A DNA stretch of 64,000 bases from Saprospiraceae bacterium (lineage in GTDB: Bacteria > Bacteroidota > Bacteroidia > Chitinophagales > Saprospiraceae). The stretch spans positions 1 to 64,000 of the forward strand of contig JALHRR010000025.1 of assembly GCA_022841345.1 (NCBI GenBank). The letters are read 5' to 3'. The translations under genes were made by a program, and so were the position numbers. Shown one piece after another: positions 39,799 to 58,298 of the stretch (position 1 is the first letter of the stretch; each line of letters begins with the position of its first letter). The notes below the pieces were generated by a model that saw nothing but the letters and a program-made list of their open reading frames with translations, was not told the origin of the DNA and ran no database searches.

Positions 39799-41127
39799 AT
39801 GAAAGGGACTATTACGATCATTCTCCTGCTGACTTATTCCGCCATGCTTCATGCGCAGGGATATCAATCCTGGCTTACCGGCAGCAGCAATGACATCAAT
39901 ACCAATCATGAGCCAGGTCTGGTTCTGGCAGGGGGCGGAACTGACAATGATTTTGCCATGCAATGGATGCTTCAAAAAGCACAGGGCGGAGACGTAGTTA
40001 TTATACGGACGACGGGATCCAACGGATATAATAGTTACTTCTTTTCTGAGCTTGGCATAAGCCTCAACTCTGTTGAAAGTATTCGGATTGACAACCGTGA
40101 GGGTGCCAATCAAGACTATGTGGCACAGAGAATCAGAGGGGCTGAGGTTCTTTTTATAGCCGGAGGCGATCAAACTACCTATTATGACAACTGGCTGAAT
40201 ACTAAGGTTCATGAGGCCATTTTGTACCTTATTAATGAAAAAAAAGTCACTATAGGTGGCACCAGTGCCGGAATGGCCGTGCTCAGCGAATTCTTTTATG
40301 TGCCTACCGGATCCAGTCTGGTATCCACTGAAGCTTTAGCCAATCCTTACCACCCAAATTCTAATAATATCGGGTCAGCTAATTTCATCTCCCATCCTCA
40401 GTTGGGAAATACTATCACTGATACACATTTTGATAATCGGACCAGAGCAGGCAGAACGGTATCCTTTCTGGCGAGAATGGCAAAAGATAGCAATATCAAT
40501 CCCAGGGGAATCGCATGCAATGAAAGAACTGCAGTTTGCGTGTCGCCCAATGGCGTGGCCAGGGTCTTTGGAGTGGATAGCAATCCAAATACTTTTGCCT
40601 ATTTCATACAGACCAATTGTCTCATCCCGGAATCAATTCCGGAAAATTGTGAGCGGGGAGAAAAACTGCATTGGGTAAAAGATAATAAAGCCCTCAAAGT
40701 GTATAGAGTAAAAGGCGATCAGACAGGTTCCGCTTCCTTCAATATTGCAAACTGGACAAATGGAAACGGTGGAGAATGGTTTCACTGGTATGTGAATAAT
40801 GGGGTTCTGATTCAGGAAGCCGGAGACGCTGAACTATGCAGCACCACTTCAATTCAAGATACAGCGTCAGGAACAAAGGATTTTCAAATTTATCCCATCC
40901 CAGGTGACAGCGTTCTGAAAGTAGCGGTGCACTATACCCCGCCCGGAGGTTTTCACAAATTAATTATCAGCAACAGTCAGGGCGGCCATGTCAAAACCAT
41001 GACAGTAGAGCATGGTACAGGAATCCTCAGCATTGATATCAGCAAATTTAAACCTGGAGTGTACACGCTTTGTATGCAAAGAAATAATACTTCCAATGCC
41101 GGATGTCAGACTTTTTTGAAAATGTAG
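39799..41127 (+). CDS. Cyanophycinase-like S51 peptidase with T9SS domain
   Basis: A 442-residue secreted protein. A signal peptide (residues 1-19, MLHAQ) is followed by an S51 peptidase domain. Its landmarks are LVLAGGGTDNDFAMQW, AEVLFIAGGDQTTYYDNW, the nucleophile elbow IGGTSAGMAVLSEFF and the family-typical TDTHFDNRTRAGR. Cyanophycinases cut the Asp-Arg polymer cyanophycin; exported S51 members may act on other peptides. The last 75 residues are a T9SS type A domain (FQIYPIPGDSVLKVAV ... PGVYTLCMQRNN ... FLKM). It is surface-directed. No cyanophycin synthetase is present in the window. Confidence 0.88.
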   Translation: MKGTITIILLLTYSAMLHAQGYQSWLTGSSNDINTNHEPGLVLAGGGTDNDFAMQWMLQKAQGGDVVIIRTTGSNGYNSYFFSELGISLNSVESIRIDNREGANQDYVAQRIRGAEVLFIAGGDQTTYYDNWLNTKVHEAILYLINEKKVTIGGTSAGMAVLSEFFYVPTGSSLVSTEALANPYHPNSNNIGSANFISHPQLGNTITDTHFDNRTRAGRTVSFLARMAKDSNINPRGIACNERTAVCVSPNGVARVFGVDSNPNTFAYFIQTNCLIPESIPENCERGEKLHWVKDNKALKVYRVKGDQTGSASFNIANWTNGNGGEWFHWYVNNGVLIQEAGDAELCSTTSIQDTASGTKDFQIYPIPGDSVLKVAVHYTPPGGFHKLIISNSQGGHVKTMTVEHGTGILSIDISKFKPGVYTLCMQRNNTSNAGCQTFLKM

Positions 41128-41224: not shown

Positions 41225-41655
41225 ACAGCCGGTTAATATATGAGAAAGTGCAAATTACCATTTGCCCGGCTTGAAAGCTGAATTAATATTCGTTCATGAT
41301 TTTATTGTAGAGACGCAATGCATTGCGTCTCCTCTCTGCACAAACTGCCAGTTAATACATGAGAAAGGGCAAATTATCATTTGCACGACTTGAAAGACGA
41401 ATTAATATTCTTTCATGATTTCATTGTAGAGATGCAAATGCATTGCGTCTCCTCTCTGCACAAACAGCCGGTTAATACTTGAGAAAGGGCAAATTACCAT
41501 TTGCCCGGCTTGAAAGCTGAATTAATATTCGTTCATGATTTTATTGTAGAGACGCAATGCATTGCGTCTCGTTTCTGCACAAACGGACGGTTAATACATG
41601 AGTAAGGGCAAATTGTAATCTGCCTGCCATAGAAGAAGCAAATTAATATTTGTGC
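41225..41655. repeat. 120-bp tandem repeat, 3.6 copies
   Basis: Units begin at 41225, 41344, 41464 and 41583 (lengths 119, 120, 119 and a partial unit of about 73). Each full unit contains two palindromes: GGGCAAAT-TACC-ATTTGCCC (varied between units) and GAGACGCAATGCATTGCGTC, a nearly continuous 22-bp inverted repeat. Units 1 and 3 are closest to each other. No open frame persists through the repeats. Confidence 0.92.
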
Positions 41656-41847: not shown

Positions 41848-41891
41848 TTACAAAAAGGCTGGAGTATTATACAAGCTTTGGTCGTAGTGCG

Positions 41892-42319
41892 GGTGACGCC
41901 CCGGCACGGCTGCGCCTGGCCGGGGTGACGCCTCTTCACTGCTACGCAGTAAAGAGGTGACGCCTGCGAATATGATCAACGGCTGAGCCGTTGATCGTAT
42001 TCGCAGGTGACGTTCCGGAGTTAATTTTGCCAATGGCAAAATCAACGGACGCGGGAAAGGAGGAGCTTATAAAAAGGGAATTTGGAAACTTGCCAATTTT
42101 GCCTGCGGCAAAATTGTTGCTGATAGTTGATTCTACACAAAAAATGTCGCTTACGCAGAAACGTCACTCTTGCCATCGCAGATGGAAAGAATGTCACCTT
42201 TTGCCGCAGGCAAAAGGCGTCACCCCATGCCGGCAAAGCAGGCATGGGGCGTCACCCGTGATACGAATAAGCTCCGGTATTACCCTCAAGCCGGGTACTC
42301 GTATGCCCGTAGCGGTGAC
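41892..42319. repeat. Hairpin array 2 (two arms in opposite orientation)
   Basis: The left arm has GGTGAC at 41892, 41924, 41956 and 42006. The right arm has the complement GTCACC at 42193, 42219 and 42251 and GTCACT at 42163. A final GGTGAC lies at 42314. Between them are hairpins with different stems, for example CCTCTTcACTG/CAGTaAAGAGG, GCGAATA-GATCAACGG/CCGTTGATC-TATTCGC, AATTTTGCC/GGCAAAAT (two versions), CCTTTTGCC/GGCAAAAGG and CCCCATGCC/GGCATGGGG. The orientation switch makes a roughly mirror-symmetric structure centred near 42090. The composition is much more GC-rich than the surroundings. Confidence 0.8.
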
Positions 42320-42475
42320 AGCAAATCAGGGGAATCCCCGGTAGAAGTTGCCCGCGTGAAGGATGCGCAAGGTGGCCGCAGGCCAGTCCACAAGCATTGG
42401 GGACCGAAGCGAAGCGGAGCCTGGAGCAGCCTGACCCGACGAAGGAGGGGCACGCCCAAAGCATTTTTATTTTAA
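42320..42475 (+). other. GC-rich, possibly structured noncoding element
   Basis: Directly after array 2 lies about 155 bp of strongly GC-rich sequence. It contains short perfect hairpins, GGGG-AAT-CCCC at 42329-42339 and TGGCC-GCA-GGCCA at 42373-42385, a direct repeat CGAAGCGAAGCGG, and a GGG-CACG-CCC hairpin followed by T-rich sequence (42447-42474). An open frame crosses it, but the translation is compositionally odd and shared with the hairpin array, so I treat it as noncoding. I cannot name the element. It ends just before the promoter of the S9 peptidase gene. Confidence 0.45.
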
Positions 42476-42486
42476 GGACAAAATTT

Positions 42487-42494
42487 TATCTTTG
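42487..42494 (+). promoter_or_regulatory. Putative -7 box of the S9 peptidase gene
   Basis: TATCTTTG matches TAnnTTTG exactly, with T-rich TTTT at 42464-42467 about 19 nt upstream. Transcription from about 42500 would exclude the ATG at 42492 and supports translation from 42570. Confidence 0.6.
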
Positions 42495-45036: not shown

Positions 45037-45068
45037 GTGTAGGGGCGATTCATGAATCGCCCCTACAC
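45037..45068. repeat. Perfect 32-bp palindrome
   Basis: GTGTAGGGGCGATTCA is followed at once by its exact reverse complement TGAATCGCCCCTACAC, with no loop. Such a sequence could be a cruciform, a protein-binding site or a mobile palindromic repeat. Confidence 0.95.
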
Positions 45069-45179: not shown

Positions 45180-45299
45180 GTCACCTTCGAAATAAATTGG
45201 CTGCGTAGCAGTAAATTTATTTCGGAGATGTCACCTTATGCCGCAGGCATAAGATGTCACCTTGCAAGCGCAGCGAGCAAGATGTCACCCGTGCTACGA
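45180..45299. repeat. Hairpin array 3 (GTCACC-punctuated)
   Basis: GTCACC occurs at 45180, 45230, 45256 and 45284, three times within GATGTCACC. The intervening hairpins are AAATAAATT..AATTTATTT (about 45190-45222, with loop GGCTGCGTAGCAGT), TTATGCC-GCA-GGCATAA (45236-45252) and CTTGC-AAGCGCAGC-GAGCAAG-like (45261-45282). The array ends in CACCCGTGCTACGATG, which resembles both an end of array 2 (GTCACCCGTGATACGA at 42251) and, complemented, its left edge at 41881-41897. Confidence 0.85.
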
Positions 45300-45383
45300 T
45301 GAAATCCTTATGAGTGTTGCTAAAAACGGAGGATCCAGCCTGGGGAGGAAGATCTGTTTACGATTAAACATTTATTCAGAACA

Positions 45384-48300
45384 TCACATCTTCACCACCT
45401 TCCCTCTAAACACCTTCTCCCCTGTCTTCATCATTAACAAATAAGTTCCGGGAGCGCATTTGCTGATATCAATCAGGTTGTCATGATAGCTGATCTTTTG
45501 CGAAAGAATCAGCTTTCCGTGGATATTATAAATCATGAAATCCTGGGGTTTATCGGTGAGGGCATTTCCAGAGATATACACAAGGCCATTAGCAGGATTT
45601 GGGAAAGCCGTGATGGACTCGAAAGAGTGTTCATTTATATTCAAAGGTTGTCCAATAACTGTGACAACTTCTTCTGTAATAATGGGTTCATTGAAATCAA
45701 AATAGATTCCTGCCAGGTTTTTCACTTCATCACCCCTGCTTGTCAGACTGTCCAACTTAATTTCAAATTTGATAAATCCATGAGAAGCAGGTTCATTTTT
45801 GAAACTGTCTACTAATTGAATATCTTCAAAAAGGACAACAAGTAAACTATTACTTACAGTCCATTGATAGTCATGTGAAGAGGCTATGGGACGAATAGAA
45901 CTAATATCAAATTTGGAGCTGATAGGGTCTTCAATTCTGACTGTGAATGCAGTGTCAGTGCCCGTATTTTGAAAGCGAATTAAATATTCGATTTTGTCAC
46001 CCGGTTCAATATAGGACTGATTGCGGTTGCCGTTGACAAAAATGTTTTTGTCATTTGGGTCATAGGCTCCGATATTTTCCTGGCATTCTACATATTCATT
46101 TCTGATGGTAGCTTGTGTACAATCCGGCGCATCGGTAGTAGTTGTGGCGGATATACAATGTTCCATTCCGAGTTCTGATCTGCAGTTTATATTGATTGTA
46201 AAATGAAATCTTACACAATCTGCTACCGGAATATTCCCTGCATCCAGAATGAGCGTATTTTCCACCAGCGATATAATGGGTAAGCTAGCAGAAATGAAAT
46301 CAAATAATGTATCCAGAGTTACGACAATTTCTGTGTTGAAAGATTCAATATTGCCTTCATTGCATACGGTGCCTGAATAAGTGTTGTCGAAGCATCTGCG
46401 TAAAAAAGGTGTCGAAATTCCAACAATTGGATTGGCGCAATAAACAGAAACTTTGAGAGGTATATTGAGAAATATTTCTTGTTCAGTATCTGAGAAATTG
46501 ACTGGATATGAAACCTCACAGTTCTCATACAAGTCTGAATTATAGATAACTTTTACTTCATTAATATCTGAATGCAAGAGAAAAATGGCCTTCCCGGTAT
46601 AATCCAGTTCCTGCATATATTTATTATTTACAAGTATCTTCATTCCTTTTAATACTGGTTCATCGGGTTCTACCTGACAATTTTTGTTTTGTTCATCAAG
46701 TACCGTAACAAGTAATCTGTTGGGTTGGCGCAATTGCATATTATATTTCAAAACCCCCATACCAAGAGTAGATAGATATATATAATTATCAGGGCTGATT
46801 TCAACATCGAGAATCTTAAGCAATTCAGGAAATTCGGGAGAAATATTATGCCAGCTATCCCCCTGATCTTCAGAGTAAAAAATTTGTTTATGGCTAAAGG
46901 CGTAAATGTTATTCAACTTGTCAGTTTTTAAATTAAATCCTGTGTTTAAGTTGAAACCACTTATAGGTTTATACGTAAAAGTTTCACCAAAATCTGTAGA
47001 AGTGGCAAGGTACGTTTCATTTATGCCTGATATACCGTATAGCGTTTCATTATAATACGAAGTTGCAAAAAAACTTACGCTTCCAGTGTAAGGGTTGGGT
47101 AGCTGTTCTTTGGTTGAAAAGTTGTAATAAACCATTTCTGATCTGACAGGATGAAGATGATGAATAATATGCAGACCGAAATTATAGTAATGAGAATAAG
47201 AGTTTGGCAGTATACCAAATATTTGCTGATCTATACCTTGCACAGCCGACCAGTTTCTCCCATAATCTGTGGAGAAGTAAAGAGAGTCTTTTGACCATTG
47301 ATATAATGCGTCAAACTTCTCTTCCATTTTTGTGTTTTCCGGGATTGAAATATATTGATCAGAGAGTGACTCCCAGGATTTACCTCTATCCTTTGTTTGG
47401 TATAATTCATTAAAAGAGGAAAGCGCAATAATAGCTCCATTTGAGAGGCTTTTGGGGTGGGACAATCTCCCTTCAGGGCCTGCGATAAATTTCCATTCTG
47501 CATTCTCATTCTCCTTGTAGTAGGAATATTCATCATAAAACGCAAAGAGGTTTTCTTCTATTCCAGCTGCAAAAGCAGGCATATATGGTATTCCAGCATG
47601 GAATGGGATTAAGCTCCAACTAATTCCTGAATTATCCGAAGTATAAATCACAGGCACTACATGGTCATGCGAGGTGACAATGACTCCATTTGGATCGGAT
47701 TTTATGAAGTTACAATAGGGTGCTGGCAAACTTCGCTGAATAAAAGTATTACCATTATCATTCGAGATATACAATTGAAATTCAGAAATATAAAACACTC
47801 GCTCATCCATTCCTACATCGAAATATGAAATATTAGTTTGCGGCGGCAGATTCAGAGCGGTCCAGTTTATTCCATCGTCGGAATAAGTATCTTTTCTGAA
47901 AAATCTATTGTTGGACCGACTTATAGAAATGTCACCCCATTGAGTAACAGTACTTACTTCCTGAACAACACTTAAATCTTCGTTAAACTGCAATAGCACA
48001 TGGTAAATTCCATAAGTTACCTGGACAAAATGATTTTCATTTGTATCATCCATCAGAAACTGAGTTTTATTTGCTATCCATTCATAGCTATTTAAAAGTT
48101 GCCAATCCGCAGAATACAATTTTAAATTGTAAAAATGTGCCACTAAAATATTCCCGTTTTTTAGAACAGTAAAGTTGTACACTTCAAAGTTAGCCACTTG
48201 TTGGTACTCCAAATTTATTGGATTAAACTTATGGATTCCATATCCATTTGCAATAAGAATATCTCCATTCTGGTCTTCACGAATTATTAATTTTTCACTG

Positions 48301-48551
48301 AAGGCTATTCCAAGTTCATCAGGCATTGCTCTCCATGATTGACCATTATTATCAGAAAAGAACCATTGATTTGTAAAAATTAATTGCCCAAATAAATATC
48401 CATGGCTGGTTTGATGCTTTAAATGGATAGTAGTCTTAAACGGACTTCCTATTTGTTTCCAATCCTGACTCTGCCCGAATACAAAATTCTGAACTTGAGT
48501 TAGAATAACCATGGCTAAAACTGTCTGGAAAAAGATTTTTTTTAATTTCAT
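45384..48551 (-). CDS. Large T9SS propeller protein, paralogue A
   Basis: A 1055-residue surface or secreted protein. Its parts are a signal peptide (1-26); a propeller-like region to about 610 with many sialidase-type Asp-box motifs (SDNNGQSWR, SNDNGNTF, TKDRGKSWE, STDYGRNWS, SEDQGDSWH); an SdrD B-like segment (DEQNKNCQVEPDEPVLKGMK, about 617-700); and a cysteine-rich region. A DPNDK-type domain follows (about 830-965, PGDKIEYLIRFQNTGTDTAF; I believe now DUF7619), then a T9SS type A domain (975-1055, GTYLLMMKTGEKVFRGK). It is the last of four tandem paralogues. No sialidase catalytic set is evident, so a binding or photosynthesis-system-II-like propeller role is more likely than hydrolysis. 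Confidence 0.85.
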   Translation of the reverse strand: MKLKKIFFQTVLAMVILTQVQNFVFGQSQDWKQIGSPFKTTIHLKHQTSHGYLFGQLIFTNQWFFSDNNGQSWRAMPDELGIAFSEKLIIREDQNGDILIANGYGIHKFNPINLEYQQVANFEVYNFTVLKNGNILVAHFYNLKLYSADWQLLNSYEWIANKTQFLMDDTNENHFVQVTYGIYHVLLQFNEDLSVVQEVSTVTQWGDISISRSNNRFFRKDTYSDDGINWTALNLPPQTNISYFDVGMDERVFYISEFQLYISNDNGNTFIQRSLPAPYCNFIKSDPNGVIVTSHDHVVPVIYTSDNSGISWSLIPFHAGIPYMPAFAAGIEENLFAFYDEYSYYKENENAEWKFIAGPEGRLSHPKSLSNGAIIALSSFNELYQTKDRGKSWESLSDQYISIPENTKMEEKFDALYQWSKDSLYFSTDYGRNWSAVQGIDQQIFGILPNSYSHYYNFGLHIIHHLHPVRSEMVYYNFSTKEQLPNPYTGSVSFFATSYYNETLYGISGINETYLATSTDFGETFTYKPISGFNLNTGFNLKTDKLNNIYAFSHKQIFYSEDQGDSWHNISPEFPELLKILDVEISPDNYIYLSTLGMGVLKYNMQLRQPNRLLVTVLDEQNKNCQVEPDEPVLKGMKILVNNKYMQELDYTGKAIFLLHSDINEVKVIYNSDLYENCEVSYPVNFSDTEQEIFLNIPLKVSVYCANPIVGISTPFLRRCFDNTYSGTVCNEGNIESFNTEIVVTLDTLFDFISASLPIISLVENTLILDAGNIPVADCVRFHFTININCRSELGMEHCISATTTTDAPDCTQATIRNEYVECQENIGAYDPNDKNIFVNGNRNQSYIEPGDKIEYLIRFQNTGTDTAFTVRIEDPISSKFDISSIRPIASSHDYQWTVSNSLLVVLFEDIQLVDSFKNEPASHGFIKFEIKLDSLTSRGDEVKNLAGIYFDFNEPIITEEVVTVIGQPLNINEHSFESITAFPNPANGLVYISGNALTDKPQDFMIYNIHGKLILSQKISYHDNLIDISKCAPGTYLLMMKTGEKVFRGKVVKM

Positions 48552-48624
48552 TAAATAAAAACATATAATTCAATCGATTTAAAATAATTGACAGGCAAAA
48601 AGCATTCCACTCTTTGATCTGGAC

Positions 48625-51600
48625 TCACATTTTGAGTAACTTCCCTCTAAACACCTTCTCCCCTGACTTCATCATCAACAAATAAGTTCCGGGAGCGCAT
48701 TTGCTGATATCAATCAGGTTGTCATGATAGCTGATCTTTTGCGAAAGAATCAGCTTTCCGTGGATATCATAAATCATCAAATCTTGCGGTTTATCGCTCA
48801 GGGCATCTCCTGATATATACACAAGGCCATTAGCAGGATTTGGGAAAGCCGTGATGGACTCGAAAGAATGTTCTTTTGTATTCAGAGGTTGTCCGATAAC
48901 CGTTACAACTTCTTCAGTGATGATAGCTTTATTGAAATCAAAAAAGATTCCTGCCAGGTTTTTCACATCATCTCCCCGAAGCGTAAGACTATCAAGTTGT
49001 ATTTCAAATTTGATAAATCCATGCGAAGCAGGCTCATTTTTGAAGCTGTCTACTAACTGGATATCTTCAAATATAACAACGAGCATTCCATTGTTGACTG
49101 ACCAGGTGTAGTCATGTGAAGCAGCTACAGGTTTGAGGGAGCTGATATTAAATTTCTTCGTGATCGGATCTTCAATTCTGACCGTGAAAGCAGTATCGGT
49201 TCCGGTGTTTTGAAAGCGTATCAAATACTCGATTTTATCTCCCGGTTCGATGTAAGTTTGATTACGATTTCCATTGACAAATATGTTTTTATCGTTTGGA
49301 TCGTAAGCCCCAATGTTTTCCTGGCAATCGACATATGCATCTCTGGCAGTGGGGATTTCTCCACAATCCTCAGAATCTGTACTCGTATAGGCTGAGATAC
49401 AATGTTCCTGACCCAATTCAGCGTCGCAATTAACATTCACTACAAAATGAAAACTTTGACATTCACCGGGCTGAATATGACCGGCATCTAAAATCAGTGT
49501 TTGTCCATTAATTGATTTAACAGGAAGACTGGCCGATATAAAATCGAAGAATGGATCCAGTGTAATTTCTATTTCAGTATTGATGGACTCAATATTCCCT
49601 TCATTACAAACAGAGCCTGAATAAATATTGTCGAAACATCTTCTTAGGAATGGAACTGAGATACCTACTACCGGATCAGCACAGTATTTCAGAACTTTAA
49701 GTGGGATATCCAGGTGTAGTTCGGTATCAGTCTCTTCAAAAATAACCGGATAAACCGAAGCACATTCACCATACAATTCATCACTGTATATCACTTTGAC
49801 TGTGTTATTCAAAGCATGAATCAGGAAAGAACTTACACCATCAGAATCCGGAGTATTCAAACTAAGTCCATTTAACAGTACTTTTATTCCATTCAATGTC
49901 ACTTCATTGATGTCTGCAATACAGTTCAAATTTTCATCATCAATTACCCTTACATGTAATTTCTTCGGGGCTACCAGCTGACTGTTGTATTTCAAAATGC
50001 CTTTTCCAATGGTTGATATATAAATGTAGTTATCAAAGCTAATGTCAAGATTAGTAATTTTCCAAACGTCGCTAAAATCCGGGGTAATATTGGACCATGA
50101 ATTACCGTCATCGCTGGAGTAAAATATTTGTTTGTCGGTATATACATAAATATTACCAAGGTGGTCAGTTTTTATTTTACGGGAATTCTGATCCATCAGG
50201 CCTTCAATTCGTTTAAAGGTAAAAGTTAAACCATGATTCTTTGTAATGCATATAGCGATTGTGCCATTATCATTTCTTAGGCCATAAAGTGCTTCATCAC
50301 TATAAGATGTGGCAAAAGGATAAATGTCTGGTCGTTCAGCGCTAACAACTTTTTCTCCAGTCAGCCAATTGAAATAAACTAATCGTGAAGGATTTGTGAA
50401 ATCAGTAACGAAATGATAAGAACCAAAATTCACCCCGGATATATAACTGACTATTGGAGACAATATCATATCAGGATCCGTAGTAATAATCGTATTCCAG
50501 CTTTCTCCAAAATTGACTGAATAGAGCATTTTATCGTATTGCTGGAAATAAAGCACGCCTGATTTTTCAACAACTGAAATGTCATTGAACCAACTTAAAT
50601 TTTGATTCGATTTAAGCTCCCAATCCGTACCTTTATTTTGAGTTCCATACATCCTGGCAATGTTTGTAATACCAACACTTGAACCATCTGAGAAACTCAT
50701 AAATTGCTCAAACGAAAGCATAGGAGGAGCACTGGATACTGCCCAGGGGGACCAGGAATTTTTTTTATAGAAGAACTCTGAATGTCCATAATCGCCTGGC
50801 ACATACAGGTTTTCATCTAAACCGGCTTCAAAATCGATGATGGATGGAACTCCAGGATAATGTGGCCCATCTTCCCAATTTTCTCCTGAATCATTAGACA
50901 GCAAATAAACAGGTTTGCTTTGTCTGGAATCAGAAATTACAATTTGACCTGATAAATCTGATGAAATATAGTTTGAATTGCTGACAGGTTTATTGACCTG
51001 ATTAAAGGAATTACCATTATCCTCGGAAATGAATAGATTGTTTTCAGTTACCACAAAAAGTCTGCCATCATGCCCAATGTTGATTGTAGTCAAATTGTTG
51101 ATGAATTGATGGTCAAAATTTAGCCACGTTGATCCGGCATTGTCTGAATATTGATGTCCGTTAAATAATCTATCTCCATTTCGAAGTAATATTGGATAAG
51201 GTCCAGCGCTTGTTTTATTACTGATAAAGGATAAATCATCATTGAATTCAATGATAGTCTGGCCTGCCCCCAGCGTGTTCAAAACAAAATTCATTTGACC
51301 TGTCCGGTCCAAAAGAAATCTTGCAGTGTGGGTCCACCAGCTGTGCTGTTTGATCAAGACTCCTGTTTTGGAATACGAGCTTAAAAACCCTGTTGTAGCA
51401 ATTACAATTGTTCCATTTTTGAGAATTGAAAAATCAAGAAAGCTGTTTTCAGATGCTTGAATGATTTGATTGATCTCAAGCGTTTGAGGATCAAAACTAC
51501 AAATCTTACCATTGCTTACCTGGTACAGGTTTCCGTCTATATCTTCTCTAATTACAAAATAATCACTGTCTCCCTTACCAAAGTCATCTGGTAATTGCCT

Positions 51601-51804
51601 CCAGCTATGCCCGGTATCGTTTGAAAAAAATATTTGATTGGTATAACTCATCTTACCAAAAAGATAACCCTGACTAGTTTGGTGCAAAATGTAAATGGAT
51701 GTTTTAATTGGTAATTCAATCTGATTCCAATCCTGATTTTGAGCAAGTGTAATGCACGGAATTATGCTCACGAAAATCGTGGCTATCAATATTCTTAAAA
51801 ACAT
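48625..51804 (-). CDS. Large T9SS propeller protein, paralogue B
   Basis: A 1059-residue paralogue with the same order of parts as its neighbours. Asp-box examples are SNDTGHSWR, SEDNGNSF, SNDSGENWE and SSDDGNSWS. The SdrD-like segment starts near DDENLNCIADINEVTLNGIK. Its C-terminal third is nearly identical to parts of paralogues A, C and D, while the propeller is much more diverged. The T9SS end is GTYLLMMKSGEKVFRGKLLK. The gap to paralogue A is 73 nt. An independent promoter is not obvious, so the four genes may be co-transcribed. Confidence 0.85.
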   Translation of the reverse strand: MFLRILIATIFVSIIPCITLAQNQDWNQIELPIKTSIYILHQTSQGYLFGKMSYTNQIFFSNDTGHSWRQLPDDFGKGDSDYFVIREDIDGNLYQVSNGKICSFDPQTLEINQIIQASENSFLDFSILKNGTIVIATTGFLSSYSKTGVLIKQHSWWTHTARFLLDRTGQMNFVLNTLGAGQTIIEFNDDLSFISNKTSAGPYPILLRNGDRLFNGHQYSDNAGSTWLNFDHQFINNLTTINIGHDGRLFVVTENNLFISEDNGNSFNQVNKPVSNSNYISSDLSGQIVISDSRQSKPVYLLSNDSGENWEDGPHYPGVPSIIDFEAGLDENLYVPGDYGHSEFFYKKNSWSPWAVSSAPPMLSFEQFMSFSDGSSVGITNIARMYGTQNKGTDWELKSNQNLSWFNDISVVEKSGVLYFQQYDKMLYSVNFGESWNTIITTDPDMILSPIVSYISGVNFGSYHFVTDFTNPSRLVYFNWLTGEKVVSAERPDIYPFATSYSDEALYGLRNDNGTIAICITKNHGLTFTFKRIEGLMDQNSRKIKTDHLGNIYVYTDKQIFYSSDDGNSWSNITPDFSDVWKITNLDISFDNYIYISTIGKGILKYNSQLVAPKKLHVRVIDDENLNCIADINEVTLNGIKVLLNGLSLNTPDSDGVSSFLIHALNNTVKVIYSDELYGECASVYPVIFEETDTELHLDIPLKVLKYCADPVVGISVPFLRRCFDNIYSGSVCNEGNIESINTEIEITLDPFFDFISASLPVKSINGQTLILDAGHIQPGECQSFHFVVNVNCDAELGQEHCISAYTSTDSEDCGEIPTARDAYVDCQENIGAYDPNDKNIFVNGNRNQTYIEPGDKIEYLIRFQNTGTDTAFTVRIEDPITKKFNISSLKPVAASHDYTWSVNNGMLVVIFEDIQLVDSFKNEPASHGFIKFEIQLDSLTLRGDDVKNLAGIFFDFNKAIITEEVVTVIGQPLNTKEHSFESITAFPNPANGLVYISGDALSDKPQDLMIYDIHGKLILSQKISYHDNLIDISKCAPGTYLLMMKSGEKVFRGKLLKM

Positions 51805-51883
51805 AAAATTCTATTTAGGTTAAATAAGTAATCTGATTCATTTCAGAATCAATTCATAAGACACTTACTCTACATGTAATTAA

Positions 51884-54800
51884 TTACATCTTTACCAACT
51901 TCCCTCTAAACACCTTCTCACCGGACTTCATCATCAACAGATAAGTCCCCGGAGCCACTTTGCTGATATCAATACTGTTGGAGTAATAGCTGATTTTTTG
52001 CGAAAGAATCAGCTTTCCGTGGATATTATAAATCATCAAATCTTGCGGTTTATCGCTCAGGGCATCTCCTGATATATACACAAGGCCATTAGCAGGATTT
52101 GGGAATGCGGTGATGGATTCAAAAGAATGATCTTTAGTCTTCAGAGGCTGACCAATAATCGTCATCACTTCATCTGTAATGATAGGATCATTGAAATCAA
52201 AAAAGATTCCAGCCAGGTTTTTCACATCGTCTCCACGCAGTGTAAGACTGTCCAGTTGTATTTCAAATTTGATAAATCCATGAGAAGCAGGCTCATTTTT
52301 GAAGCTGTCCACTAATTGAATATCCTCAAATATTACGACAAGCATTCCATTGTTGACTGACCAGGTGTAGTCATGTGAAGCAGCTACAGGTTTGAGGGAG
52401 CTGATATTAAATTTCTTCGTAATCGGATCTTCAATTCTTACTGTTATTGCAGTGTCCTTTCCAGTGTTTTGGAAACGAATCAAGTACTCAATTTTGTCTC
52501 CATGCCCGATATATGATTGATTGCAGTTGCCATTGACAAATATGTTTTTGTCATTAGAATTATAATCATCGATATTTTTCTGACATTCCACATAAGCAAC
52601 TTTTGTCTCAATATCTTCACAATTAAAAGACCTTGTTTTCGCAGTAGCAGAAATGCAATGCTCCTGACCCGGTTCGGAGTTGCAATCAACGTATACTACT
52701 AAATTAAAGCTCCTGCATTCTCCGGGTTGTAAGTAATCTGCATCCAAAACAAGGATGTGTCCTGTCAAAGATTTCACAGGAAGACTTGCTGAAACAAAAT
52801 CGAAAGAAGGATCAAGGATTATTTCAATTTCAGTATTTATTGATTCGATATTACCCTCATTGCAAACTGATCCGTGATAAGTATTATCAAAACATCTTCT
52901 AAGGAATGGAACAGAAAGTCCAATCACGGGACTTGCACAATATTCTGAGATCTTCAGTGGAATGTTCAGATGCATTTCTGTGTCGTTAGCTTCAAACTCA
53001 ACTGTGTAGAAAGATTCGCATTCTTCGTAAAGGTTTGGATTGTAGATGACCTTCACTTCATTGATTAGTGAATTCACAGTGAAAATAGCTATTCCTTGTT
53101 CATCCGGCGCTCTTAAGCTTATCCCGTTCACTAAAATATTTACATTGTGTAATGGAATTTCATTATCATCTGCTAAGCAATTTTTGTTTTGATCATTCAT
53201 TACACTTATGGACAATGTTTTGGGGATTACGATTTGATTTTTGAATTTCAATATTCCTTTTCCTTTAGTGGATACATAAATGTAATTGTCAAAACTAACC
53301 TGCAAGTCATTGATACCTTGTATTTCCGGAAAATCAGGTGTGATATTTATCCAGCTAGTTCCCTCATTGAATGAATAAAAAACCTGTTTATCTGTGTATA
53401 CATAAATATTGTTGAGATGATCTATTTTGATGCTACGAGATGAATGAGTGATCAGTCCATTGATTTTTTTATTGGTAAATGTTGCCCCATGATCTTTTGA
53501 AATGAATAAAGCAAGAATGCCCTGATGTAATCCCATGCCATAAAGCGTTTCTTCACTATAAGACGCAACTAAATTATAAAAATTTGGTACTGCAGAATTT
53601 ATAGTTTTTTCTTTGGTTAAAAAATTATAGTAAATTAACTTATGCGGTTCCAAGATATCATTGGTGAAGTAGTACACGCCAAAGTTTGGAGCAAGAATCA
53701 CCTGAGGAAGAAATAATAAAAGCAGCGAAGTATCGGTATGCTGAATTGACTTCCAATTTCTTCCAAAATCCTCGGAGTAATTCATTTTATCATTATAAAG
53801 CGAATATAAAATTCCAGATTTTTCTTCCAGACTAATCCCGGATATCGATGAAAATGCGAGTTTATGATCAGTTAACAATTGCCAGTCAATTCCATTATTT
53901 TTAGTTTCGTGGATATGTCCAGATTGAGATATGGAAATAATAGTACCGTCGCTTAAATTCCTGATTCTGGAAAAACGATTACCATCCGGATGATTTGTAT
54001 GTTCCCAACCTGACCATGCAGTCTGCTTGTAAAATAATTGACTAAGGTTCAAATCATTTACATGATAAAGATTTTCATTTATTCCAGCTGAGAAAGCTGT
54101 CATGTATGGAATGCCAAATTCATGAATAACAAGATCCCAGTTTAATCCCATATCATTTGAGAGGTAAAACACAGGGGAATGTAAATTCTCACGGGTAATA
54201 ACTATTTCGCCTGATAGATCCGATGAAACATAACTTGGATTGATAATTGGTAAATCGACTGAAGTAAGTGTCATTCCATTATCCTGACTGATAAAAAGTT
54301 CCTCCCCGGATACAAAAAACAGGCTTCCATTGTGCCCCGAATTCATGAAAGAAATATTCATATTGGCCGGAAAATTCAAACTTTGCCAGATTATTCCATC
54401 ATCCGAATAAAATTTCCCCCAAAAGAACTTTTGTCCATTTCTAATCATTTCGCGAGCGTTGATATCTACATCTTCACCTACAAAAGATAGATCATCATTG
54501 AATTCTGCCAACTTATGACTAGATCCAAGACTTTTAATAACGTAATGTTTCTGACCTTCCTGGTCAAGCAAAAGGAGGCCAGAATGCGTCCACCAATCAT
54601 GTTGAATTAAAACAGAATCATGCCCGGAATAAATTGTCAGCCTCTTGGGATCTGCTACAATGAAATTACCATTTTTAAGAATGGCAAAATCAAGAAAATC
54701 CGATCGGATTATAATCCGGAGTGAAACCAGACTTATGGGATCCAGTTGGTAGATTCCACCTCCACCTGCATGAAAAACATTCCCTTCCATGTCTTCTCTG

Positions 54801-55054
54801 ATCATTAAACCTCCATTTCTGTGGTTACTAATATGCTGTGTTAATTCACTCCAGGTTTGTCCACGATCAATAGAAAAAAACAATTGGTTGGTTTCACTCA
54901 TCCTCCCAAAGAGGTATCCTTTATTAGTCTGATAAACTATGTATATCGATGATTCAAAAGGGCTAACAATCTGTTTCCAATCCTGACTTTGCCCGAAAGC
55001 AAAAAAAGAAATATGAACCAGAAAAATTAAAATTATCGATATTCTTAAAATCAT
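51884..55054 (-). CDS. Large T9SS propeller protein, paralogue C
   Basis: A 1056-residue paralogue. Asp-box examples are SIDRGQTWS, SNDMGLNWD, SEDFGRNWK and SKDHGATF. It differs from the others in the otherwise fixed DPNDK block, which reads DDYNSNDKNIFVNGNCNQSY; after it, PGDKIEYL becomes GHGDKIEYL. It also has a cysteine in NGNCNQ where the others have arginine. The stretch from ITKKFNISSLKPVAASHDYT through LAGIFFDFN is the same as in paralogue B. The T9SS end is intact (VFRGKLVKM). Relaxed constraint on one loop or a changed specificity is possible. Confidence 0.85.
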   Translation of the reverse strand: MILRISIILIFLVHISFFAFGQSQDWKQIVSPFESSIYIVYQTNKGYLFGRMSETNQLFFSIDRGQTWSELTQHISNHRNGGLMIREDMEGNVFHAGGGGIYQLDPISLVSLRIIIRSDFLDFAILKNGNFIVADPKRLTIYSGHDSVLIQHDWWTHSGLLLLDQEGQKHYVIKSLGSSHKLAEFNDDLSFVGEDVDINAREMIRNGQKFFWGKFYSDDGIIWQSLNFPANMNISFMNSGHNGSLFFVSGEELFISQDNGMTLTSVDLPIINPSYVSSDLSGEIVITRENLHSPVFYLSNDMGLNWDLVIHEFGIPYMTAFSAGINENLYHVNDLNLSQLFYKQTAWSGWEHTNHPDGNRFSRIRNLSDGTIISISQSGHIHETKNNGIDWQLLTDHKLAFSSISGISLEEKSGILYSLYNDKMNYSEDFGRNWKSIQHTDTSLLLLFLPQVILAPNFGVYYFTNDILEPHKLIYYNFLTKEKTINSAVPNFYNLVASYSEETLYGMGLHQGILALFISKDHGATFTNKKINGLITHSSRSIKIDHLNNIYVYTDKQVFYSFNEGTSWINITPDFPEIQGINDLQVSFDNYIYVSTKGKGILKFKNQIVIPKTLSISVMNDQNKNCLADDNEIPLHNVNILVNGISLRAPDEQGIAIFTVNSLINEVKVIYNPNLYEECESFYTVEFEANDTEMHLNIPLKISEYCASPVIGLSVPFLRRCFDNTYHGSVCNEGNIESINTEIEIILDPSFDFVSASLPVKSLTGHILVLDADYLQPGECRSFNLVVYVDCNSEPGQEHCISATAKTRSFNCEDIETKVAYVECQKNIDDYNSNDKNIFVNGNCNQSYIGHGDKIEYLIRFQNTGKDTAITVRIEDPITKKFNISSLKPVAASHDYTWSVNNGMLVVIFEDIQLVDSFKNEPASHGFIKFEIQLDSLTLRGDDVKNLAGIFFDFNDPIITDEVMTIIGQPLKTKDHSFESITAFPNPANGLVYISGDALSDKPQDLMIYNIHGKLILSQKISYYSNSIDISKVAPGTYLLMMKSGEKVFRGKLVKM

Positions 55055-55133
55055 ATATTCTTCTTATTCATAAAATATTAAAAAGATTTCAATGCCGAAC
55101 CATCAGGAATAGTAAGGGAATCTTAATTCAATC

Positions 55134-58100
55134 TCACATCTTCAGCACCTTCCCTCTGTACACCTTCTCCCCTGACTTCATCATCAACATATAAGTCCCC
55201 GGTGTGCATTTGCTCATATCGATCCAATTGTCATGATAGCTGATCTTTTGCGATAGAATCAGCCTGCCATGGATATCATAAATCATTAAATCCCGGGGCT
55301 TATCGCTTATTGCCTCTCCGGAGATATAGATATGTCCGTTACCTGGATTAGGGAAAGCAGTAATGGATTCGAAAGAATGCTCCTTTGTATTCAGAGGTTG
55401 TCCGATTACCGTGACAACTTCTTCCGTAATAATCGGGTCATTAAAATCAAAGAAGATTCCTGCAAGGTATTTTACATCATCTCCCCGAACTGTAAGACTG
55501 TCCAGCAGTATTTCAAACTTGATAAATCCATGTGATGCAGGCTCATTTTTAAAGCTATCAACTAATTGAATATCTTCAAATATAGCGACAAGCATCCCAT
55601 TGTTTACTGACCATGTATAGTCATGTGAAGCGGCTACAGGTTTAAGTGAGCTTACATTAAATTTCTTCGTGATCGGATCTTCAATTCTTACTGTGAAAGC
55701 TGTGTCTGTTCCTGTGTTTTGGAAGCGAATCAGATATTCGATTTTGTCGCCAGGTTCGATGTAGGTCTGATTGCGATTTCCATTGACAAAAATGTTTTTA
55801 TCATTTGGATCATATGCACCAATATTTTCCTGACAATCTACATATGCATCTCTGGCAGTAGGGATTTCTCCACAATCCTCAGAATCTGTGCTTGTGTAAG
55901 CTGAAATACAATGTTCCTGGCCCAACTCAGCGCTGCAATTAACATTCACTACAAAATGAAAACTCTGACAATCTCCGGGCTGAATATGACCGGCATCCAG
56001 AACCAGCGTTTGACCATTAATTGATTTAATAGGAAGACTGGCTGAAATAAAATCGAAGAATGGATCCAGTGTTATTTCTATTTCAGTATTGATAGATTCA
56101 ATATTTCCTTCGTTACAAACAGAACCATAATATGTATTGTCAAAACATCTTCTCAAAAAAGGTACTGAGAGGCCTACTACCGGATCTGCACAATACTTTT
56201 TTACCTTCAATGGAATGTCGAGATGCAATTCTGTGTCAGTGTCTTCAAATTCGACAGTGTAGGACGATTCGCATTCCTGGAAAAGATCGGAATTGTAGAT
56301 TACTTTTACTTCGTTGAGGGTAGTATGGATGTTAAATGTAGTTTTTCCGGAAGGACCCGGATGTTGGAGGTAATTACTGTTTACTAATACCTTCACTGAT
56401 TTAATTACTGGTTCATTCAAATCAACCGAACAATTCTTATTTTGATCATCCAGGACAGTTATAACTAATTTTCGGGGCTGTTTTAATTGAGGCCGATATT
56501 TCAATAAACCCATGCCCATTGTGGCAAGATATATATAATTGTCAAAACTGGTGCTCAGACCTTCTATTCTTTCAAATTCAGGAAATTCCGGAGAAATATT
56601 GTGCCAGCTGTTTCCCTGATCCTCCGTGTAAAAAATCTGTCTGTTTGAATAAACATATATATTATCAAGATGGTCAGTTTTCATATAATAATTTTGGCTT
56701 TCATTGAAGCCGGGAATTGGTTTTGAAGTAAATGAAGTACCAAAGTCTTCTGATATTTTTAATTGAAACACACCAGATGATTGACTTAAATAATAAAAAT
56801 TTGAATTGTAATATGATGTTGCAAAAACAATGTTGGGAGGAGGCAAAATATTTTTTACTTTTTCGCCACTCAAGGAATTATAATAAATTAATTCTTTATG
56901 TCCAACTTGTTGTGTTGATTTGTAGAAATATGTTCCAAAATTAGGTGCAATCAGTTTAGGGTTTTGACTAGGCAGTATTTCAGGATCTGTAATAGATATG
57001 AACTCCCAGGTTATGCCAAAATCTTTGGAATAATTCATTGTATCTTTATACCAAACATATACAGCATCGGCTTTTTGAATAAGGCCTTGATAATTTCCAA
57101 AAAACTTACGATCATCTGAATGTACTTCCCAGTAGTCACCATAATCTTTAGCTATGAATACTTGACCAGAATCAGAGAATGCAATGGTTGTTCCATTAGC
57201 CAAACTTGCTGGACTGTACAGATCGAGACCTTGCTGATTATCTGATTTACGCTGCCAGGGTGACAATGAATCTTTTTTATAACTGAACTTATTATGCACT
57301 GCTGAGAAATAAATGTTTTCATTTAATCCGGCTGCTATTCCGCCGTGAATAAATGATAGATGAGGTACTCCCACATTGGAATGTATCGATTCCCACGTCG
57401 ATCCCAGGTCAAATGACCGATAAAGTAATGGTTGAGAGCGATTTTCTGTTACTATAAAAACACCTTGTCTGTCACTGGAAATATATTCCATATTTGTAAC
57501 AGGAAAAGCTTTTTCTACAAATGTCATTCCATTATCTGTAGATATAAATAATTTGTACTGAGTCGAGTACAATAAAGTGCCATCCAATCCAATATTATTT
57601 CTGGAAAAAATTTCGTTGGGTAAATTCAGGTTTATCCAATCAATCCCGTTATCTGAATAGGTCTTTAAAGTAAATAATCTATTTCCATTTCTTAGAATTG
57701 GAGTAGATGTGTTAACAGGTATTTTATCCTTAATTTCTGTAAGGTTTCCGTTGAACTCAATTAGATCTGTTTTTCCATCTGATTTATGAACCACATAGTG
57801 CTTATCACCTGTCGGATCCATTAGGAGTTTGACAGAATCAGTTAACCAATGGTGTTCATTTATAACTGAACCCCCGGGCATTAATAATACTATTTTATAG
57901 GTTGAAACAATAATGATATTCCCATTAGTTAAGAAGGCAAAATCCTGAATCCCAGGCATTGTTAAAAATAGATGAGATTCATGTGTAAGGGGATTAAAAG
58001 AGTATAAACCGTGTGAACCAGCATAATAAAGTTCTCCAATATTATTTTCTCTAACTAAATCCCCATTGAAGCCGTAGAAAATGGATTCGTGTAATTCATG

Positions 58101-58298
58101 CCAAATACTACCATTATTCTTCGCGAAAACAAATCTGGCTGTTCCGCTCATTTGGCCAAATAAGTATCCACTTTTTGTTTGAATTCCTACATTAGGGGCT
58201 GTCTTCAGAGAACTTCCTATCTGCTTCCAATCCTGACTTTGAGCACTTGAGATAAAAGGAATTAAAAATATAATAAGAAGAGATACCAGTGTTTTCAT
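55134..58298 (-). CDS. Large T9SS propeller protein, paralogue D
   Basis: A 1054-residue paralogue and the first of the four in transcription order. Its signal peptide is MKTLVSLLIIFLIPFISSAQ. Asp-box examples are STDNGMTF, SFDLGSTWE, AKDYGDYWE and TEDQGNSWH. The SdrD-like segment reads DDQNKNCSVDLNEPVIKSVK. The block TSTDSEDCGEIPTARDAYVD and the DPNDK domain match paralogue B almost exactly. The T9SS domain differs slightly (GNGHIYISGEAISDKPRDLM). The upstream 220 bp are free of genes and must carry the promoter for D and possibly for all four. Confidence 0.85.
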   Translation of the reverse strand: MKTLVSLLIIFLIPFISSAQSQDWKQIGSSLKTAPNVGIQTKSGYLFGQMSGTARFVFAKNNGSIWHELHESIFYGFNGDLVRENNIGELYYAGSHGLYSFNPLTHESHLFLTMPGIQDFAFLTNGNIIIVSTYKIVLLMPGGSVINEHHWLTDSVKLLMDPTGDKHYVVHKSDGKTDLIEFNGNLTEIKDKIPVNTSTPILRNGNRLFTLKTYSDNGIDWINLNLPNEIFSRNNIGLDGTLLYSTQYKLFISTDNGMTFVEKAFPVTNMEYISSDRQGVFIVTENRSQPLLYRSFDLGSTWESIHSNVGVPHLSFIHGGIAAGLNENIYFSAVHNKFSYKKDSLSPWQRKSDNQQGLDLYSPASLANGTTIAFSDSGQVFIAKDYGDYWEVHSDDRKFFGNYQGLIQKADAVYVWYKDTMNYSKDFGITWEFISITDPEILPSQNPKLIAPNFGTYFYKSTQQVGHKELIYYNSLSGEKVKNILPPPNIVFATSYYNSNFYYLSQSSGVFQLKISEDFGTSFTSKPIPGFNESQNYYMKTDHLDNIYVYSNRQIFYTEDQGNSWHNISPEFPEFERIEGLSTSFDNYIYLATMGMGLLKYRPQLKQPRKLVITVLDDQNKNCSVDLNEPVIKSVKVLVNSNYLQHPGPSGKTTFNIHTTLNEVKVIYNSDLFQECESSYTVEFEDTDTELHLDIPLKVKKYCADPVVGLSVPFLRRCFDNTYYGSVCNEGNIESINTEIEITLDPFFDFISASLPIKSINGQTLVLDAGHIQPGDCQSFHFVVNVNCSAELGQEHCISAYTSTDSEDCGEIPTARDAYVDCQENIGAYDPNDKNIFVNGNRNQTYIEPGDKIEYLIRFQNTGTDTAFTVRIEDPITKKFNVSSLKPVAASHDYTWSVNNGMLVAIFEDIQLVDSFKNEPASHGFIKFEILLDSLTVRGDDVKYLAGIFFDFNDPIITEEVVTVIGQPLNTKEHSFESITAFPNPGNGHIYISGEAISDKPRDLMIYDIHGRLILSQKISYHDNWIDMSKCTPGTYMLMMKSGEKVYRGKVLKM

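Follow-up and report, generated by a model that had tools for sequence, protein, structure and literature searches.

A dispersed two-armed hairpin array in a Saprospiraceae genome, probably a REP/BIME-type palindromic element with multi-hairpin arms

Contig JALHRR010000025.1 of a Saprospiraceae bacterium carries an array of short linkers and hairpins at 41892-42256, which raises the question whether it is a local product of fusion or inversion of two arrays, or one copy of a mobile unit with inverted ends, as the original prediction had offered side by side. The window, i.e. the whole stretch of DNA analysed (64,000 nucleotides), places the array between a peptidase S51-like ORF ending at 41127 and a prolyl oligopeptidase-like ORF starting near 42492. 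Four GGTGAC linkers stand opposite four GTCAC[CT] linkers with hairpins in between, and the window contains GGTGACGCC five times, while 0.05 occurrences are expected from shuffles. The linker positions given in the original prediction were correct, both for the left arm (GGTGAC at 41892, 41924, 41956 and 42006 of the plus strand) and for the right arm (GTCACC at 42193, 42219 and 42251, the variant at 42163 being GTCACT), and so was the flip in linker orientation between them. The folding of 41880-42330 that it had proposed gave structures far more stable than those of shuffled sequences, both as DNA (z -11.0) and as RNA (z -10.7).

The left arm (41892-42011, plus strand) consists of three hairpins, its linkers being spaced by 32, 32 and 50 nucleotides. 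H1 (41898-41926) has a 2x2 internal mismatch and a TGC loop, and the GGT that closes it already forms the first three bases of the next linker; H2 (41930-41958) has the loop TAC; H3 (41962-42008), corresponding to the inverted repeat I3, is long, with 22 pairs and a TGA loop. The outer end that precedes them (41874-41891, plus strand), AGCTTTGGTCGTAG-TGCG, resembles the outer ends of solo arms in an alignment of 53 arms (A1), with the consensus GGCTTTnGTCGTAGnnCG, and differs from that of seven other aligned two-armed copies, where it is GGCGCTGCC-like. The centre holds the neighbouring hairpins predicted to have common AATTTTGCC/GGCAAAAT stems, which were indeed found at 42023-42042 and 42095-42114; they are the cores of H4 (42020-42046, plus strand, AATTTTGCC..GGCAAAAT) and H5 (42094-42116, plus strand, AATTTTGCC..GGCAAAATT). 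The right arm (42163-42256) is of the same kind as the left one, lies on the minus strand and again has three hairpins, H6 (42168-42190), H7 (42197-42217) and H8 (42223-42249), all three delimited in the pairing test of eight copies. Its outer end (42257-42274, minus strand) is a diverged inverted copy of the left one and reads AGCTTATTCGTATCACG on the minus strand; the corresponding row of A1 spans 42193-42274. Together the two arms form an imperfect inverted repeat of 61 nucleotides with 72% complementarity. Directly to the right, 42327-42460 is GC-rich without a match in Rfam, and a 19-mer taken from it was present in three of the 358 loci searched, all of them this same stretch of the window.

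Pairing was followed in the eight two-armed copies and in the 53 arms. In the eight copies 94.5% of the cells of the local hairpins were paired and 29 of the 95 pairs had changed on both sides, the mean of the shuffled alignments being 11.0 and none of 500 shuffles reaching the observed value; in H3 such changes were found in 14 of the 22 pairs. The 53 arms gave a similar picture, with 74 cells changed on both sides as compared to 23.5 in shuffles (none of 500 as high), and one of the five measures of this test, pair types, did not exceed the shuffles (110 of 500). The inner helix of H2 was paired in 64.8% of the cells of this alignment, because several H2 types are aligned together there. The GGT of the linkers following H1 and H2 pairs with the RYC with which the hairpin begins. 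Since the T of the H1 loop is nearly invariant and T is also the first base of the H2 triloop in 45 of the 53 arms, the hairpins are directional. By text match, 32 of the 53 arms have a GTCGTA/ATCGTA or GTAG motif in their outer end, about 10 nucleotides from the first hairpin.

Pairing between the two arms behaved differently. It belongs to the more stable computed fold in all eight copies, but it showed no covariation beyond shuffles (5 versus 4.4; 227 of 500 shuffles). Since the local pairing is kept and the arm-to-arm pairing is unsupported, the element behaves like a chain of separate hairpins. The original prediction had gone further, and let a last GGTGAC at 42314 close a larger pairing with the linker at 42251. 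This GGTGAC is present on the plus strand, but it lies outside the element, the conserved part of which ends near 42274, with nothing evident in common with the seven other copies beyond that point. The large hairpin was thus rejected, also in view of the missing covariation of the long pairing.

A search of the own genome with the 451-base stretch gave 55 matches at E<=0.001, of which some overlap or are self-complementary; in 59 further genomes from its genus, family and order it had no match. R1, a covariance model of the two outer hairpins built from the 53 arms of A1, gave at least 133 matches in the own genome at E<=0.01, the 53 sequences used in building included; since 150 of 1,256 candidates were scored, the total may be higher. 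Both arms of the window copy are among these matches (41874-41961, 79.3 bits; 42193-42274 on the minus strand, 75.5 bits), and both stretches also belong to the model-building sequences. Clusters of at least three linkers numbered 63 in 66 genome segments, and 46 of them had exactly four linkers in one orientation, usually spaced by 29-33, then 26-27 (or 32), then 29-30 or about 50 nucleotides, so the arm is a stereotyped structure, typically a chain of three hairpins. A solo arm of this family lies in the window at 45180-45307 on the minus strand (R1 match 45230-45307, minus strand, 80.0 bits), and a candidate partial solo arm of a sister subfamily with GGTGATG linkers, having three linkers and absent from the 133 R1 matches, at 20-104 on the minus strand.

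Outside this genome the element was not recovered. Among the matches listed for 198 other genomes of the family, searched with stricter filters (23 candidates scored in the rows listed), R1 had none at E<=0.001. The plasmid and phage sequences searched gave no match to the element, the strict hairpin pattern hit no viral contig, and at the gathering score Rfam 15 had no family over the element, only tmRNA and tRNAs beside two copies. The looser linker-pair pattern matched in 80 of 150 family genomes; the matches listed outside the own genome and the family genomes G116 and G106, seven genomes being re-examined, resemble chance or coding repeats. The matches listed in pattern scans of a wider collection likewise resemble chance for the most part and were left out of the counts. 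G116 had 325 such matches, as compared to one for the reversed control; there (L132-L138) and in another Saprospiraceae contig (L200) they are 26-nucleotide tandem units headed by GGTGACG, in several loci forming facing arms, with no hairpin covariation in 31 units. G106 carries arrays of 18-nucleotide mini-hairpins with the same linker. To R1 the G116 and G106 arrays were weak matches (24 bits at best, with E 0.00019 in a small search), and the GGTGACG arrays, which were retrieved by a linker search, are a lead only. What the window contains is a single copy of a non-coding repeat that is dispersed in the genome and has so far been found in one species.

How the two arms came together can be approached from the other copies. 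Within 700 bases of each other 20 neighbour pairs of R1 matches were found, 17 of them facing, one reversed and two in the same direction. The original prediction had tied itself in advance to an orientation bias of the linkers in other arrays, and the flip indeed recurs genome-wide, although many of the 17 facing pairs go back to shared two-armed ancestors and so cannot be counted as independent. Solo arms are commoner, 96 of the 133 matches having no neighbour within 700 bases, though some partners may be cut off at the ends of contigs. Identity between the window copy and seven others, which have different flanks, is 69-76%, and all eight align at full length including the centre; the copy at C36 matches as two pieces (74 and 86%). 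Since two-armed copies recur and align through the centre, the two-armed form itself has multiplied as a unit. An old fusion that joined two different arms, with dispersal afterwards, would fit this, the mobility being suggested by the dispersal of the copies. Six of the 17 facing pairs belong to the GGTGATG sister subfamily; a central inverted repeat was located by the repeat finder in two of the three such pairs examined, and none in the third at the settings used.

The linkers also contain foreign material. A separate hairpin of about 31 nucleotides, CGAGGTTCGTTCCTCACTNCG, has 14 matches with at most two mismatches, while the reversed control has none. In eight of the 14 copies it is located within a linker, immediately behind GTGA (GGTGA in seven, AGTGA in one), and is followed by CATC or a near equivalent; four copies lie outside linkers in TCG-like flanks, and the remaining two are 9 bases past a GGTGA of the GGTGATG subfamily. 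One arm has the hairpin in two linkers, one copy being diverged, and more diverged copies were seen inside linkers. Since the majority of the copies begin directly after GTGA, the linkers look like joining sites. The arm at C8 has lost H3, and at C29 and C24 the outer end carries additional units in tandem; hairpins thus appear to have been gained and lost at linkers. Recombination or descent, instead of insertion, could also have spread CGAGGTTCGTTCCTCACTNCG.

The genomic surroundings were examined for the 64 better-scoring of the 96 unpaired arms, in the window or in regions no longer than 20 kb, with ORFs called by length only. Tandem gene gaps contained 39 of the arms, convergent gaps 12 and divergent gaps 5, seven were unassignable and one lay within an ORF, as against intergenic base shares of 62% tandem, 17% convergent and 20% divergent. 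Divergent gaps were thus somewhat avoided (5 of 56, p 0.04), and the median distance of the solo arms to 3' ends of genes was 166, versus 259 to 5' ends. Given this mild avoidance the arms may be linked to gene ends. In tandem gaps they were neutral to gene direction, 18 running along and 21 against it. GGTGAC was on the G-poor strand in 42 of the 64 solo arms, and the relation of arm strand to GC skew was significant in a contig-wise sign-flip test at all four sizes of the skew window. By rings around the arms, p was 1e-5 at 250-1000 bases, 0.03 at 1-3 kb and 0.22 to 0.43 beyond. With a signal strongest below 1 kb and gone beyond 3 kb, a replication-strand bias of the arms was rejected; being confined to 3 kb, the signal is ascribed to polar flanking repeats. 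The fork-strand bias that is expected for a single-strand transposon gave no sign in the GC skew beyond 3 kb.

Several other features were seen around the arms. Solo arms lie near RNA genes (tmRNA, tRNAs) at C16 near 44300 (L038) and at C98 near 2450 (L039). In the window, perfect palindromes GAGACGCAATGCATTGCGTCTC follow TTGTA at 41310-41331 and 41549-41570, at a distance of 239 bases, and an imperfect copy lies between them near 41430; they are another repeat with a spacing of its own. The palindrome GTGTAGGGGCGATTCATGAATCGCCCCTACAC at 45037-45068 recurs in the own genome at C3 59880-60480 and C22 1150-1500. Four adjacent minus-strand ORFs of 1054-1059 amino acids at 45384-58298 suggest a tandem gene family, the two that were tested both having DUF7619 and a Por secretion tail.

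A candidate for the mobilising enzyme was sought in the form of Y1 transposases. Four Y1 matches were found in the own genome, four in G116 (one below the family cut-off) and seven in G106. The flanks of these 15 loci, up to about 1.5 kb, contained isolated GGTGAC and no chains, and R1 had no match in them at E<=1. An adjoining RAYT gene was therefore rejected, none of the 15 Y1 matches of the three genomes standing beside arms. The own-genome Y1 genes (L051-L054) each have a distinct type of hairpin repeat. Like the arms, these are short hairpins, and the L052 repeats share GGTCGTAG (complement CTACGACC) with many arm ends, which is a lead only; in contrast to the arms, their hairpin sequences are different and form no GGTGAC chains. 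The L054-type repeat was seen downstream of four of the nine class-ii arms. L052 and L054 carry NHIH and L053 SHIH, with YIH[FL]NP in all three, and compared by eye with the accessible part of PMC6006769 these proteins may be near its subclass 2.6. Neither excision nor insertion of an element was observed. No clean empty site was found in a flank search covering 1.07 of the 5.87 million bases of the own genome; for 82 elements it gave five candidates, of which the three inspected were not clean and two were other copies of the element. The same-genus genome G001 has no DNA match to 5.2 kb around the site and is uninformative on its occupancy.

Among known systems the REP/BIME/REPIN repeats, mobilised by RAYT (TnpA-REP), are close in many respects. 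As far as the accessible text of PMC3116915, PMC6006769 and PMC8266576 goes, the likeness extends to high-copy extragenic palindromes with compensatory stem changes, inverted pairs as a recurrent unit, a fixed loop direction and GTAG motifs close to many of the outer ends. On the same footing, the differences are that a REP is one hairpin, whereas here arms of several hairpins share a GGTGAC linker; that the maintained pairing is local, pairing of the inverted units into one long hairpin having no support from covariation; and that no RAYT gene was found adjoining the repeats. The GT[AG]G tetranucleotide of RAYT-mobilised REPs is expected 0-2 nucleotides 5' of a stem-loop, and GTAG appears here to stand about 10 nucleotides away from the hairpin foot. 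The CGTC-tagged REPs, judged by the available portion of PMC3733652, are similar in the linkers of the opposite strand (here CGTCACC/TGTCACC), in the predominance of facing pairs and in having no dedicated transposase; their way of spreading is left open there. Their described 8-9 bp stem starting with AT, loop of 4-5 nucleotides and CCA tail were not seen in our element, which has regular hairpin chains, stems of variable length without the AT start and mostly 3-nucleotide loops. The tag itself is an unpaired CGTC (or TGTC) at one end of the hairpin; here linkers flank each hairpin on both sides, and their ACC is paired. In the open-access literature, as far as its texts were accessible, no description of such multi-hairpin arms was found.

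Taken as a whole, the array is probably a copy of a palindromic DNA element of the REP/BIME type that is interspersed and non-autonomous and has multi-hairpin arms. A REP/BIME-like working is the most likely one, yet RAYT-flanked REPs, REPINs and CGTC-tagged REPs each have defining features that the element shares in part. The strong RNA fold, the avoidance of divergent gaps and the covarying hairpins, with one-sided changes of the G-U type beside a fixed linker, would also suit a structured RNA that exists in many copies, as a UTR element or as a free non-coding RNA, and has hairpins acting as RNA. Neutrality to gene direction, the lack of an Rfam match, and more than a hundred diverged matches in one species, with none among those listed for the other family genomes under the stricter search, make this reading improbable.

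Still less probable is a MITE, moved by a DDE transposase via terminal inverted repeats with the hairpins as passengers: the arms do form an imperfect inverted repeat and the copies are dispersed, mostly between genes, but the unpaired majority of the arms would have no second terminal repeat, and the pairing between arms is not kept. Mobility might also be dispensed with, if slippage and recombination had multiplied hairpins and linkers and template-switch correction of quasi-palindromes had kept the stems perfect. Template switching is able to create compensatory changes without selection, and the extra tandem units at C29 and C24 and the H3-less arm at C8 resemble products of slippage. Such a process leaves unexplained why the repeat is dispersed over many intergenic positions while its hairpins keep one order and its ends are conserved, and we hold it for rather unlikely.

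For the REP/BIME-type element we infer a single-strand mechanism and enzyme. Its basic unit is the arm, which begins with an outer end (often GTCGTAG-N4) and continues, as a rule, with three hairpins that GGTGAC links together; the GGT of each linker closes the preceding hairpin, and about GAC remains as a spacer. Two different arms would have been joined around a short centre, and the two-armed form has multiplied as well. The single-stranded hairpin may be the recognition structure of a HUH-type single-strand endonuclease, e.g. a Y1 transposase of the REP-associated kind that acts in trans. The linker might be cut after GGTGA and hairpin modules joined or inserted there, by which arms could grow and swap hairpins. 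That GGTGA^Y is the cut-and-join site of the enzyme, modules ending in GGTGA being inserted after GGTGA so that the arms extend themselves and exchange modules, is a tentative and rather doubtful proposal; if true, the element would be a modular transposable array, unlike the single-unit REPs.

REP-type repeats that have no dedicated transposase have no known route of spreading, the question being open for the CGTC-tagged REPs according to the available portion of PMC3733652. With its many diverged copies of fixed architecture, its sister subfamily in which the linker has changed to GGTGATG, and a foreign hairpin that stands precisely within linkers, the family described here makes the growth and dispersal of palindromic arrays testable within one genome.
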